A DNA stretch of 51,189 nucleotides from Clostridiales bacterium (lineage in GTDB: Bacteria > Bacillota > Clostridia > Lutisporales > Lutisporaceae): NCBI GenBank assembly GCA_012521375.1, contig JAAYMO010000226.1, forward strand, positions 1-51,189, in the 5' to 3' direction. The notes beneath the pieces were generated by a model. The model was given only the letters and a program-made list of their open reading frames with translations, did no database searches and had not been told where the DNA came from. Positions within the stretch are counted from its first letter, which is position 1, and every line of letters begins with the position of its first letter. A program made the position numbers and the translations under genes. This document shows, piece after piece, positions 8,468 to 23,407 of this stretch.

Positions 8468-9625
8468 ATGAAAAATATAACCATATTAGGCTCAACTGGT
8501 TCTATAGGAACACAAGCTTTAGATGTAGTAAGAAACAATAGAAAAGAGTTTAATGTATCTGCATTAACTACTAATACCAATATAGATATTTTATACGATC
8601 AGGTTCTAGAATTTAATCCTGATATAGTTGTCATAACTGATTATGATAACTATAAAGAGTTTAAAACAATCATAGCTACAAAGGATATAAAAACACAAGT
8701 GCTCTATGGTGAAGAAGGCTTAATAGATGCAGCAGTATATGACAAAGCAGATATTATTTTATCTTCGATAGTTGGTATTGCTGGTCTAAAGCCGACTTTT
8801 GAAGCCGTAAAAAAAGGTAAAACTATAGCGCTTGCAAATAAAGAAACTATGGTTACTGCAGGTAAAATAATAACAGAGAAAGCAAAGGAAAGCAATTCCA
8901 CTATAATACCAGTTGATAGTGAACATTCAGCAATATTTCAATGTATAGGTGAAGAAAGGGAGTATGTGTCAAAGATTATTCTTACCGCTTCTGGAGGACC
9001 TTTTAGAAATAAATCATTACAAGAATTAAAAAATGTAACAATTTCAGATGCTCTGAAACATCCAAATTGGACTATGGGCAAAAAGATTACTATAGATTCT
9101 GCTACATTGATGAACAAAGGATTAGAAGTTATAGAGGCCAGATGGTTATTCGATATAGAAGCTGAATCCATTGATGTGATTGTACATCCGGAGAGTATAA
9201 TACATTCTATGGTAGAATTTATTGATGGAGTGATTTTGGCCCAATTAGGTATTCCGGATATGAGAATACCGATTAAATATTCCTTGACTTTTCCTGAAAG
9301 AACTATGGATTATGGTAAAAGATTGGATATTTCTGAAATTAGCAAATTAAGTTTTGAAATTCCTGATGTTAAGAGATTTCCTTGCCTTAAACTTGCTTAT
9401 GATGCTTTAAAAAGCGGAGATAGTAGTTGTATTGTGCTAAACGGAGCTAATGAAGTAGCTGTAACTTCGTTTCTTCAAGGGAAAATAGGTTTTACAGATA
9501 TTTACTATATAGTAGCAAGTGTTTTAGAGAAACATACTAATGTGAAAATAAATAGTATAGAGGATGTATTTGAGGTTGATTATTGGGCAAGAAAAATTGC
9601 TTATGAAATGTTTAATAAGAGGTGA
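8468..9625 (+). CDS. dxr: 1-Deoxy-D-xylulose 5-phosphate reductoisomerase
   Basis: DXR (IspC), 385 residues, the NADPH-dependent second step of the MEP isoprenoid pathway. Visible signatures: the Rossmann start ITILGSTGSIGTQALDVV, IALANKETMV, the metal/substrate region VDSEHSAIFQ, SGGPFRNKS and HPNWTMGKKITIDSATLMNK. With ispG downstream it shows that isoprenoids for UppS come from the MEP route. The AAGGAG Shine-Dalgarno is close to the ATG. Confidence 0.97.
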   Translation: MKNITILGSTGSIGTQALDVVRNNRKEFNVSALTTNTNIDILYDQVLEFNPDIVVITDYDNYKEFKTIIATKDIKTQVLYGEEGLIDAAVYDKADIILSSIVGIAGLKPTFEAVKKGKTIALANKETMVTAGKIITEKAKESNSTIIPVDSEHSAIFQCIGEEREYVSKIILTASGGPFRNKSLQELKNVTISDALKHPNWTMGKKITIDSATLMNKGLEVIEARWLFDIEAESIDVIVHPESIIHSMVEFIDGVILAQLGIPDMRIPIKYSLTFPERTMDYGKRLDISEISKLSFEIPDVKRFPCLKLAYDALKSGDSSCIVLNGANEVAVTSFLQGKIGFTDIYYIVASVLEKHTNVKINSIEDVFEVDYWARKIAYEMFNKR

Positions 9626-9630
9626 ATGAT

Positions 9631-10641
9631 ATGAATTTTGGGAATGCGGTAGTATCAATATTAGTTTTTGCTATCATTGTTATGATACATGAATTTGGAC
9701 ATTTTATTATAGCAAAACTTTCAGGTATTAGAGTAGAAGAATTTGCCATTGGAATGGGTCCTAAAATTTATGGAAAAAAGAGAGGCGAAACTTTATATTC
9801 TTTAAGAACTATACCTATTGGAGGATTTTGTAAGATGACTGGAGAAGATGAATCATCAGATGATGTGAAAGCTTTTAATAAAAAACCTTTGCATATTAGA
9901 ATGGCAGTGATTTTCTTTGGGCCTTTAATGAACTTTTTGCTGGCTATATTAATATTCTCTCTAGTAATAACTCAAAGCACTATAATCAATGAGGTGATTC
10001 AAGGTAAGCCTGCTCATGTTGCAGGTATTCAAAAAGGCGATAAAATAATTGAAATAAATGGCACAAAAACAGAAGATTGGAGTAGCATAAAGCATAGTAT
10101 TTCATCAAATCCTAATACTCCAATAAATATTACTTTAGAAAGAAACAAAGAAATTAAGAATATTACTGTAACGCCAATTGTAGATAATGAAACAAAAGAC
10201 ACTATTATTGGAATAACACCTTCTCTTAAGATAGCCGGTATATCATTTAAGAACGGTTTTTATTCAACATTTGAAATGACCAAAGCTATGGTAAATTTTT
10301 TGGGCAAACTTTTTACTGGTCGAGCATCCTCTGATGATGTATCAGGACCTGTAGGTATAATAGTGTTTATAAATGAAGCCGCAAAGTTTGGTTTTTTATA
10401 TCTTTTGAATTTAACAGCATTTTTGAGTTTAAATTTAGGGATAATAAATTTGCTACCAATACCAGCCCTAGATGGTGGTAGATTGTTATTTTTGTTTATC
10501 GAGCTTATTAGACGAAAACCGATAGAAGCAGAAAAAGAGGGATTTATTAACTTTGTTGGATTTGTGGCATTAATGGTTCTTGCAGTTATAATAGCATATA
10601 AAGATTTGATAAAATTTGGTTTATTGAATTTTTTTAGGTAG
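9631..10641 (+). CDS. rseP: Site-2 intramembrane metalloprotease RseP/RasP
   Basis: A 336-residue S2P zinc protease that cleaves membrane segments such as anti-sigma factors and signal-peptide remnants. The first helix carries MIHEFGHFIIAK (HExxH), a PDZ domain occupies about residues 115-200, and the second active-site motif is LLPIPALDGGRLLF. A GTG at 9622 overlaps the dxr stop and is in frame, but the ATG at 9631 has AAGAGGTGA at proper spacing and is preferred. The order dxr-rseP-ispG is standard. Confidence 0.95.
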   Translation: MNFGNAVVSILVFAIIVMIHEFGHFIIAKLSGIRVEEFAIGMGPKIYGKKRGETLYSLRTIPIGGFCKMTGEDESSDDVKAFNKKPLHIRMAVIFFGPLMNFLLAILIFSLVITQSTIINEVIQGKPAHVAGIQKGDKIIEINGTKTEDWSSIKHSISSNPNTPINITLERNKEIKNITVTPIVDNETKDTIIGITPSLKIAGISFKNGFYSTFEMTKAMVNFLGKLFTGRASSDDVSGPVGIIVFINEAAKFGFLYLLNLTAFLSLNLGIINLLPIPALDGGRLLFLFIELIRRKPIEAEKEGFINFVGFVALMVLAVIIAYKDLIKFGLLNFFR

Positions 10642-10649
10642 GTATTAAT

Positions 10650-11708
10650 ATGAGGAAAAAAACAAAAATAGTGAAAATAGGTAATATTGAGATAGGCGGA
10701 GGAAAAAGAATTGTAGTACAATCCATGACTAATACTAAAACTGAAAACATAAAAGAAACTGTTAAACAAATAAAAGAACTTGAAAGTATAGGATGTGAAA
10801 TTATTAGATTAGCTGTTCCAACTTTTGAAGCCGCTGAAGCATTAAGAACTATTAAAAAGTCTATAAAAATTCCTATTGTTGCAGATATTCATTTTGATTA
10901 TAGGCTTGCCTTAACTTCAATAGAAAATGGAGTTGATAAAATCAGGATTAATCCTGGTAATATAGGAGGAATTGAAAGGCTAAAATATATAGTTAAACTT
11001 GCAAAAGAGAGGCAAATACCTATTAGAGTAGGAGTAAACTCCGGGTCTCTTGAGAAGGATATACTGGAAAAATATGGTGGACCAAAACCTGAAGCTTTGG
11101 TTGAAAGTGCATTAAAAAACATAAGAATGATTGAGGAACTTGATTATGATCAAATTGTAATTTCAATTAAATCGGCTAGTGTAATGGACACCATAGAAAG
11201 TTATATGCGTATATCTTCGATTGTTGATTATCCTCTCCATCTTGGCGTTACGGAAGCTGGAACAATAAGAAAGGGGACAATAAAATCTTCAATAGGTATT
11301 GGATTTCTTCTGTATCAAGGAATTGGTGATACAATAAGAGTATCATTAACAGGTGATCCAAAAGAAGAAGTATATGTAGCATATGAAATATTAAAAAATT
11401 TGGAACTCATAGACTCAGGAATAGATGTAATTTCCTGTCCGACATGTGGCAGGTGTTCTGTAGATTTAGTAAGCATTGCCAATGAAATAGATAAAAGATT
11501 AGAAAGTATTAAAATAAAAAAGAAAATAAAAGTAGCTGTAATGGGTTGCGCTGTTAATGGACCAGGAGAGGCAAAAGATGCAGATATTGGTATTGCTGGC
11601 GGAAGGGGGGAATACTTGCTTTTTGTAAAAGGAAAACCGGTAAGAAAAATAAACGAGGATTCTGCTATAGATGTGTTAATGGAAGAAATAGAAAAAATCA
11701 ATAAATAA
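10650..11708 (+). CDS. ispG: 4-Hydroxy-3-methylbut-2-enyl diphosphate synthase
   Basis: IspG (GcpE), 352 residues, a [4Fe-4S] enzyme that reductively opens methylerythritol cyclodiphosphate in the MEP pathway. The TIM-barrel N-terminus has VQSMTNTKTEN and RINPGNIGG. The C-terminal cluster ligands are in ISCPTCGRCSVD and VMGCAVNGPGEAKDAD. It is the short bacterial form with no inserted domain. Confidence 0.97.
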   Translation: MRKKTKIVKIGNIEIGGGKRIVVQSMTNTKTENIKETVKQIKELESIGCEIIRLAVPTFEAAEALRTIKKSIKIPIVADIHFDYRLALTSIENGVDKIRINPGNIGGIERLKYIVKLAKERQIPIRVGVNSGSLEKDILEKYGGPKPEALVESALKNIRMIEELDYDQIVISIKSASVMDTIESYMRISSIVDYPLHLGVTEAGTIRKGTIKSSIGIGFLLYQGIGDTIRVSLTGDPKEEVYVAYEILKNLELIDSGIDVISCPTCGRCSVDLVSIANEIDKRLESIKIKKKIKVAVMGCAVNGPGEAKDADIGIAGGRGEYLLFVKGKPVRKINEDSAIDVLMEEIEKINK

Positions 11709-21174: not shown

Positions 21175-22491
21175 ATGTCTAGTCAAAGATTAAATCGTAT
21201 ATCTGAAGAATTAAAAAAGGAAATCAGTAAAATTGTGATGAATGAACTAAAAGACCCGAGGATTTCTGCTATGTGCAGCATTGTGTCAGTTGAAACAACT
21301 CCGGATTTAAAGTATGCAAAAGTTTATGTCAGCATATACGGTAATAAAGAGGAAAAAGAAAGGACTTTTAAAGGTTTAAAAAACGCTAGTGGATTTATTC
21401 GAAGAAGACTTGGTGATGAAATAAAAATAAGATATCTTCCTGAGATACAGTTTATATTAGATGACTCTATAGAACATGGCGTAAAAATCACTGAAATTTT
21501 AAATGAAATTAAGAAAAAGGAAGAAGGAAAAAAATTGATTAACCAAGTGGTTCTAAAATTGATTAAAGAGAGTAGAAATATTGCTATATTGTCTCATATC
21601 ATGCCTGATGGAGACAATATAGGCTCTTGTCTTGCATTATATAATGCACTTTTAAAGTTGGGTAAAAACCCATTAGTAATATTAGATGATGATGTACCTG
21701 AAGTCTATAAATTTCTTAAGAATTCTAATAAAACTGTAAAACCTGAATTGGAATGCAATTTTGATTTAGTTATAGTACTAGACTGTGGAGATGCTGACAG
21801 ACTTGGTAAAAGTATTAAATATTTAAAAAATAACAATGTAATAAATATTGATCATCATATGAATAATACTAATTTTGGATGTATCAACTTAATCGATATA
21901 AGTGCTGCTGCAACGGCAGAAATAGTATATAGATTAATTAAAGGCCTTGATATACCCTTAGATAAGGATATTTGCCAATGTATTTACACAGGAATAGTCA
22001 CTGACACAGGCCAATTTCAGTATAGTAATACATCTTCATATACTCATGAAATAGTAGCTGATTTAATTAGAAATGGTGTAGAGCCGTCAAAGCTTTATAA
22101 GGCTATATATCAAAACAATTCAAAAGCAAAAATTAAACTAATAAGTGAAGCCCTTAGCACATTAAGGTTTGATTTTGAGGATAAAATAGCTTCTATGACT
22201 ATAAAAAAAGAAATTTTTGATTTAATTGGAGCAAAAGATGAAGATGTAGACGGCATCATCAATCTAGCAAGGGATATTAAAGGTGTTGAAGTAGCTTTGT
22301 TATTTAGAGAGACAGAAGATGGGAAGGTTAAGATTGGTTTTAGATCAAAAGATTTTATTAATGTAAACGAGATTGCGGAGATATTTGGCGGTGGAGGCCA
22401 TAAAAGGGCAGCAGGAGCTATAGTTGCTGGCGATTTAGAAAATATAAAGAATAATATTATTGAAACTGTAATACATGAATTCCGGCGGTGA
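21175..22491 (+). CDS. rbfA-nrnA: Fusion of ribosome-binding factor A and NrnA/DHH phosphoesterase
   Basis: One 438-residue frame encodes two normally separate proteins. Residues 1 to about 118 are RbfA (RLNRISEELKKEISKIVMNE, LKDPRISAMCSIVSVETTPD, YLPEIQFILDDSIEHGVKI), a 30S maturation factor. Residues from about 121 are an NrnA-like DHH/DHHA1 phosphoesterase (SHIMPDGDNIGS, VIVLDCGD, NIDHHMNN, GIVTDTGQFQYS, FGGGGHKRAAGA), which degrades nanoRNA and/or pAp. All DHH metal residues look intact. A TTG at 21535 (residue 121) has an AAGGAAGAAGG upstream and could restart NrnA alone. In relatives these are adjacent genes, rbfA-nrnA-truB. Confidence 0.93.
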   Translation: MSSQRLNRISEELKKEISKIVMNELKDPRISAMCSIVSVETTPDLKYAKVYVSIYGNKEEKERTFKGLKNASGFIRRRLGDEIKIRYLPEIQFILDDSIEHGVKITEILNEIKKKEEGKKLINQVVLKLIKESRNIAILSHIMPDGDNIGSCLALYNALLKLGKNPLVILDDDVPEVYKFLKNSNKTVKPELECNFDLVIVLDCGDADRLGKSIKYLKNNNVINIDHHMNNTNFGCINLIDISAAATAEIVYRLIKGLDIPLDKDICQCIYTGIVTDTGQFQYSNTSSYTHEIVADLIRNGVEPSKLYKAIYQNNSKAKIKLISEALSTLRFDFEDKIASMTIKKEIFDLIGAKDEDVDGIINLARDIKGVEVALLFRETEDGKVKIGFRSKDFINVNEIAEIFGGGGHKRAAGAIVAGDLENIKNNIIETVIHEFRR

Positions 22492-22495
22492 AAAA

Positions 22496-23407
22496 ATGAA
22501 CGGCATCATCAATGTTTTGAAACCTCCTGGCATGACTTCTCATGATGTAGTCAATTTTATTAGAAAACAATTAAAAATCAAGAAAGTTGGACACGCTGGC
22601 ACTTTAGATCCTGAAGCAGCAGGAGTATTACCTATTTGTATAGGCAAATCTACTAAAGCTGTCCAATATCTTATGGAAAAAAGAAAAAAATATAGAGCAA
22701 ATATTAAATTTGGAATTACTACTACTACCCATGATAAATACGGTGAAATAATTAGAAAGACTCAAACACCGGATCTAGACCAAGAAACAATTACTAATCT
22801 AATTAACAGTTTTAAAGGTAAAATTTTTCAAATACCTCCAATGTATTCTGCTATAAAGTATAAGGGTAAAAAGCTTTATCAATATGCATTAGAGGGTAAA
22901 AAAATAGATATAAAAGGAAGATGGGTTGAGATTTATGATATAAAAGTTATTGATAAAATCCATATTGATGAATTTATGATCGATATATCATGTTCAAAAG
23001 GAACTTATATCAGGACATTATGTCATGATATTGGTGAAAAATCAGGCTATGGAGCACATATGTCCCAGTTGATTAGATTAGAAGTATCTCCTTTTATAAT
23101 AGAAGAGTCTATTACTTTAGAGGAGATTAGTGTTGCAGTTAGAGAGAATAGTATTTATAAATTAATTTATCCTCCAGATATGCTTTTTACACATTATGAA
23201 ATTATTCATATAAAAAAAACAGCTGAAAAATCTGCATTAAATGGGAACCCAGTTTTTGCCCCAGGTTTAGATAATGACATTGAAAAATATAAAAAAGGAA
23301 CTATTGTTAGGTTATATATTGATAATAAGTTTATAGCAATTGGAACTATTGAGTTTGACGAAAAATTAAAAAGAAATTATGTAAAAATAAAAACATTATT
23401 TACCTGA
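22496..23407 (+). CDS. truB: tRNA pseudouridine-55 synthase
   Basis: TruB, 303 residues, makes pseudouridine 55 in the T-loop of tRNAs. Catalytic Asp lies in GHAGTLDPEAAGVLPICIG; further signatures are KPPGMTSHDVV, QIPPMYSAIKYKGKKLYQYA and CSKGTYIRTLCHDIG. An ATG at 22475 is in frame but lies within the end of the rbfA-nrnA gene; the ATG at 22496 follows GGCGGTGA by a normal distance. Confidence 0.96.
   Translation: MNGIINVLKPPGMTSHDVVNFIRKQLKIKKVGHAGTLDPEAAGVLPICIGKSTKAVQYLMEKRKKYRANIKFGITTTTHDKYGEIIRKTQTPDLDQETITNLINSFKGKIFQIPPMYSAIKYKGKKLYQYALEGKKIDIKGRWVEIYDIKVIDKIHIDEFMIDISCSKGTYIRTLCHDIGEKSGYGAHMSQLIRLEVSPFIIEESITLEEISVAVRENSIYKLIYPPDMLFTHYEIIHIKKTAEKSALNGNPVFAPGLDNDIEKYKKGTIVRLYIDNKFIAIGTIEFDEKLKRNYVKIKTLFT

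Follow-up and report, generated by a model that had tools for sequence, protein, structure and literature searches.

A Frame Joining RbfA and an NrnA-type Phosphoesterase in One Clostridiales Lineage: A Probable Recent Accident or One-base Slip of Assembly

RESULTS

One Open Frame Covers RbfA and an NrnA-type Phosphoesterase

We analyzed a 51,189-nucleotide stretch of DNA from a Clostridiales bacterium (contig JAAYMO010000226.1; hereafter the window), in which ribosome-binding factor A (RbfA) and an NrnA-type DHH phosphoesterase are encoded in a single frame. This arrangement has the look of an accident of recent date, or of a single-base slip in assembly, and not of a purpose-built two-part protein, and we regard it as a frame effect, confined to one lineage, at a translationally coupled gene pair. 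The reading that we place first, with somewhat better than an even chance of being right, is that an ordinary rbfA-nrnA pair lost one or two bases between the nrnA Shine-Dalgarno sequence and its TTG start codon, which joined the two frames. That the feature is real in the organism we judge to be slightly the better bet; if it is not, a one-base miscount is the most likely explanation.

The frame runs from 21175 to 22491 on the plus strand, from an ATG to a TGA stop, and its 438 codons specify 438 residues, in agreement with an earlier sequence-only reading of this DNA. Its parts, and the features of the junction, are as follows.

21175-21534, plus strand: RbfA-coding part, residues 1-120 of the fused frame
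21517-21527, plus strand: Shine-Dalgarno-like AAGGAAGAAGG for the nrnA start, within the last rbfA codons (KEEG), kept in all congeners
21528-21534, plus strand: A7 run that sets the frame by its length, in phase as A_AAA_AAA with GG before it (junction alignment A1)
21535-21537, plus strand: TTG, the conserved nrnA start codon, from which free NrnA (318 codons, to 22488) is probably started internally
21535-21542, plus strand: out-of-frame stops, TGA at 21536-21538 in one frame and TAA at 21540-21542 in the other
21535-22491, plus strand: NrnA-type DHH-DHHA1 phosphoesterase part (Pfam DHH and DHHA1)

The junction reads AAGGAAGAAGG-AAAAAAA-TTG-ATTAAC, with the A7 run at 21528-21534 and the TTG at 21535, and the peptide that spans it in the fused frame is EEGKKLINQVVLK.

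Both domains are complete within the frame, which confirms that one frame covers the two proteins. Pfam places RBFA (PF02033) at residues 5-109 with an E-value of 1.7e-35, matching positions 1-105 of the 105 in the model, and TIGR00082 scores the RbfA part at 116 bits against a cut-off of 51. The DHH domain (residues 135-274, 1e-21) is followed by DHHA1 (residues 352-431, 3e-13), so that the NrnA part has the DHH-DHHA1 order together with the PDGD, DHH, and GGGH motifs. The sequence-only reading had called the NrnA metal motifs intact, and they are: PDGD, DCGD, IDHH, TDTG, and GGGGHKRAAG are all present and are common to the separate NrnA proteins of relatives. The NCBIfam equivalog model for NrnA (NF053633) gives this part 151 bits, below its curated cut-off of 350, and hence we use "NrnA-type" as the safe name and claim no orthology to the equivalog set. 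The best solved relative of the RbfA part is 8bxa_A, a free-standing RbfA (E-value of 3e-26), and solved relatives of the NrnA part are TmPDE (5o1u, 1.2e-55), Mycobacterium tuberculosis Rv2837c (5jju and 5cet), and NrnA (5j21). Identity to congeners is 83-88% for RbfA and 67-82% for the NrnA part.

Almost no linker lies between the two parts, again as that reading had it. In an AlphaFold2 model of the fused chain, used for domain integrity, the mean pLDDT is 92.3 and the pTM 0.69, and pLDDT falls under 50 only at residues 116-120, a hinge located at the RbfA/NrnA junction. With both domains confidently predicted, the fusion would at least be foldable.

RbfA is matched nowhere in the assembly but in the fused frame. 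Just one other NrnA-domain match was found there, a different gene on another contig with a frame of 679 residues, which by its length is presumably GdpP-like. In a congener (G005:C139:6541-7688) the second DHH-domain gene, whose length in other genomes is GdpP-like, has two matches, one in a frame of 590 residues and one in a frame of 196, which suggests a frame break there.

In All Readable Relatives the Two Genes Are Separate

The genes rbfA and nrnA form a near-constant pair in this bacterial class. The family comprises 22 genomes including the window's own, and the genus six; the junction was readable in 19 of the 21 family relatives, G017 and G021 being the two without a readable junction. 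In every one of the 19, which include 5/5 congeners, rbfA ends in a stop codon and RbfA is a small single-domain protein that ends past its C-terminal helix, and the fused frame is found in none of them (0/5 congeners, 0/19 readable family relatives). As assembled, the RbfA of the window is not such a protein, with 318 further codons following its own. The premise that the two genes are normally separate neighbors is thus borne out, and the search for the same fusion in related genomes that the sequence-only reading had proposed came back negative, all 19 readable relatives having separate genes; this is one half of what that reading had named as refuting the fusion, the other half being an assembly error.

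The genes of these relatives are closely apposed. At 10 of the 18 junctions that could be scored, the nrnA start overlaps the rbfA stop in a four-base TTGA or GTGA, and in the remainder the start lies at most 8 bases from the stop. The start candidate at the homologous place is TTG in 13/18; the others are ATG or TTG in L006, GTG in L009, and ATG in L018, L022, and L035. Pairing of the Shine-Dalgarno sequence ranges from -4.4 to -11.1 kcal/mol across the relatives, where it is encoded by the KKEEG or KKDGG codons of the RbfA tail. These conserved C-terminal residues double as the nrnA Shine-Dalgarno sequence both in the window (21517-21534) and at the homologous junctions L003-L022, and the tail may therefore be kept by the start signal of the neighboring gene and not by RbfA function. 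In the ancestral state, an RbfA stop overlapping or touching the nrnA start would have allowed NrnA to be initiated by coupling as well as from its own Shine-Dalgarno sequence.

One family locus, L026 (G012), has a frameshift in nrnA and was for that reason left unscored for its start, although its rbfA stop is visible; at about 1390-1460 the nrnA frame changes near query residues 155-166, leaving the start and the rest of the gene in different frames, and this break is either a draft error or a pseudogene. Alignment A2 shows part of the 31 listed loci, omitting the RbfA segment of L025, the translation of which crosses a stop, and taking only NrnA from L031 and L030.

The Frames Are Joined by a Shortened Junction

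The distance from the start of the GG codon to the TTG is 11 bases in five relatives, the norm of the genus, 10 in the sister species, and 9 in the window (junction alignment). The A7 stretch is accordingly 2 bases shorter than in the five relatives and 1 base shorter than in the sister, of whose AAAAAACA it is the equivalent minus one C, leaving A7. This shortening by 1-2 bases makes the fusion a frame effect. The sequence-only reading had held that the RbfA stop was lost; it is right that there is no in-frame stop, but the stop was not mutated away, the frame having been shifted past it by the change in length. Read in the frame of the TAA at 21540-21542, RbfA would end as ...GKKID, against the tail ...GKNID of the sister species, and the fused frame is a single base in the run away from one in which RbfA is separate and has a tail resembling those of relatives. 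Given that the sister already carries an indel at the junction, the site appears to be labile in this lineage, which suggests that real changes in length do occur here.

The same comparison lends itself to another explanation, a miscount at the A run during assembly or consensus calling, which we consider possible but clearly short of probable. With one base more, the genes would be separate, their ends overlapping as in the sister, and RbfA would end ...ID-TAA with NrnA starting at the TTG. One extra junction base puts the frames in precisely the relation seen in the sister (L003), the genes are separate in all relatives, the contig belongs to a draft genome of 308 contigs, and about 80 same-frame pairs elsewhere remain separated by stops. 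However, the sister's run contains a C, so that what was lost may be other than a homopolymer base, and the assembly shows no tendency to such errors. We compared open reading frames of four congeners (613 kb) with 456 kb of the window's genome (66 pieces from 65 of the 308 contigs), and in 54 genes at ≥50% identity, covering 52,464 bases and 77 A/T runs of at least 7, there was no frameshift in the window's genome; the reverse comparison, over 58 genes, gave no frame break apart from the rbfA-nrnA junction. Zero frameshifts at 77 runs puts an upper bound of roughly 4% (95%) on the rate of miscounts per run. With no other unexplained frameshift among the 54 genes, a general problem of assembly error is unlikely, which still leaves room for a single miscount at A7. 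Two raw candidates in the window, from the comparison with the four congeners, were rejected as antisense shadow ORFs, the first overlying the ends of infB and rbfA and the second the genes at 9622-10641 and 10650-11708.

The nrnA Start Signal Is Retained

An evolved fusion might be expected to lose the start signal of its second gene, but here both the TTG and the Shine-Dalgarno sequence are retained. The pairing energy, calculated with a typed generic anti-Shine-Dalgarno sequence, is -7.2 kcal/mol in the window and the same in the sister L003. In the sampled part of the genome, pairing of -7.2 kcal/mol or stronger precedes 4.0% of 1509 internal TTG codons, and this level is reached in 67% of 286 gene-start regions, a generous figure in that the best of several start candidates was taken for each region. 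An internal restart of NrnA at TTG 21535, as the sequence-only reading had suggested, is hence credible: the codon is the conserved start of the family and its pairing is above chance. With the TTG and its Shine-Dalgarno sequence kept, free NrnA is probably still made.

At the other end of nrnA, the ORF of the next gene (truB-like product MNGIINVLKPPG...) was called from ATG 22475, inside nrnA; its likelier start is ATG 22496, right behind the nrnA stop (window 22475-22496).

The A7 Run as a Slip Site

Conceivably, the A7 run is itself functional, with slippage by RNA polymerase or ribosomes on some of the transcripts yielding RbfA, RbfA-NrnA, and NrnA in set proportions; we regard such recoding as improbable. 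The A_AAA_AAA is in phase with rbfA and has a Shine-Dalgarno sequence before it, and in each of the other two frames a stop follows within 8 bases, giving an end like that of RbfA. There is also precedent, since PMC3711429 names A_AAA_AAA and poly-A runs as known slip sites and PMC5574713 describes transcript insertions that rise exponentially with the length of A/T runs. On the other hand, the run is not conserved, differing even in the sister species and being absent from the other aligned relatives, and A7 runs are a common feature of ordinary genes in this genome, with 77 A/T runs of at least 7 in 52 kb. The sequence A_AAA_AAA is moreover much less shift-prone than A_AAA_AAG in Escherichia coli, according to PMC5009743, and transcript slippage is reported mainly at runs longer than 7 in PMC3711429. 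Equally improbable in our estimation is its strongest form, in which A7 would act as a three-way switch, in-frame reading giving the fusion, slippage in either direction a normal RbfA, and internal initiation free NrnA. Were this the case, a single gene would fix how much 30S assembly factor is made relative to nanoRNase and to the tethered form of the latter, and the run could also flip between strains by replication slippage.

The Fusion Is Confined to One Genome among the Matches Listed

No other RbfA-NrnA fusion was present among the matches listed for samples of 391 genomes of the class and 398 of the phylum, which reach down to about 217 and 233 bits, respectively, so that a divergent fusion scoring below these levels would be missed. 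By hand count, both genes are matched in one frame in about 80 listed rows (46 from the class and 34 from the phylum, with one genome shared, and G019 of the family), with one or two stops between them. A single substitution would fuse many of these pairs, yet none of those listed is fused, which hints that fusion is disfavored. The same-frame unfused pairs, for example in G045, G214, G536, and G438, are a natural data set on selection against fusion.

Four long open frames were examined as candidates and rejected. In G104 (520 aa) and G336 (540 aa), rbfA and nrnA are separate, with a spacer of ∼230-330 bases containing stops; in G076 (599 aa) the RbfA and NrnA matches lie in different frames; and in G043 (506 aa) the matches share a frame with no fused ORF listed there, the sole long ORF listed being on the other strand. 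Among the papers listed on RbfA with NrnA, nanoRNase, or Rv2837c, PMC3814617 and PMC4014445 among them, no title or abstract describes an RbfA-NrnA fusion.

These data bear directly on the suggestion of the sequence-only reading that nanoRNA/pAp cleavage could be tethered through RbfA to the 30S subunit as it matures, which would make the fusion a selected one. In its favor, neither domain is truncated, confident folding of both is predicted with a short hinge only (mean pLDDT of 92.3), and the near-constant neighborhood of rbfA and nrnA hints at related roles. However, among the matches listed for class and phylum the fusion occurs in one genome only and is absent even in the sister, it has no adapted linker, and because NrnA has kept its independent start, most of it need not be tethered. 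The long infB-rbfA-truB operon may by itself account for the proximity of rbfA and nrnA. With all five congeners and the 19 readable relatives unfused, the tether as a functional design is unsupported, and we consider it very improbable, more so than recoding.

DISCUSSION

Our preferred reading is the loss of one or two bases at a coupled rbfA-nrnA pair. In the shortened stretch, a ribosome arriving from rbfA would miss both out-of-frame stops and enter nrnA, giving the 438-residue fusion, while the untouched Shine-Dalgarno sequence and TTG would allow free NrnA to be made by internal initiation, as before. We infer that the organism truly has this base count, that it makes both products, and that the fusion persists by tolerance and not by selection. 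That same-frame pairs stay unfused among the matches listed suggests that selection usually acts against fusion, and a genuine, fixed one is a priori unlikely for that reason. RbfA is buried in the cleft between head and body of the 30S subunit, as described in PMC9032327, and a 35-kDa appendage might therefore interfere.

If the base count is real, the window offers a natural snapshot of a coupled pair becoming a fusion by a change of 1-2 bases with the second start kept, and it puts to the test whether RbfA can function with a 35-kDa protein at its C terminus. A miscount, on the other hand, would warn that A runs at the junction of overlapping pairs lead to the annotation of spurious fusions. 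In neither case should a ribosome-tethered NrnA be claimed further without reads and protein evidence.

Relation to Known Systems

The closest comparison is the sister locus (L003/DUSG01000056.1, a Clostridiales metagenome-assembled genome), with 88% identity in RbfA and 82% in NrnA, which shares with the window the rbfA-nrnA order, the TTG start, and the rbfA-encoded Shine-Dalgarno sequence, but has one more junction base, so that a stop ends RbfA. The RbfA part has the complete KH-type domain of the solved RbfA structures (8bxa/8byv, 7afl, and 7bog) and differs from them in having no in-frame stop past the C-terminal helix. Similarly, TmPDE (TM1595, 5o1u), Rv2837c (5jju/5cet), and NrnA (5j21) match the second part over the full DHH-DHHA1 length with like catalytic motifs; these solved phosphodiesterases are free-standing, whereas the frame in the window is continuous with RbfA. 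The main text of PMC3711429, on frame transitions classed by GeneTack, does not mention RbfA, DHH, or phosphoesterase. The coupled overlapping pairs described there have a co-located stop and start as the signature of coupling, and it is this arrangement that the rbfA-nrnA junction resembles.
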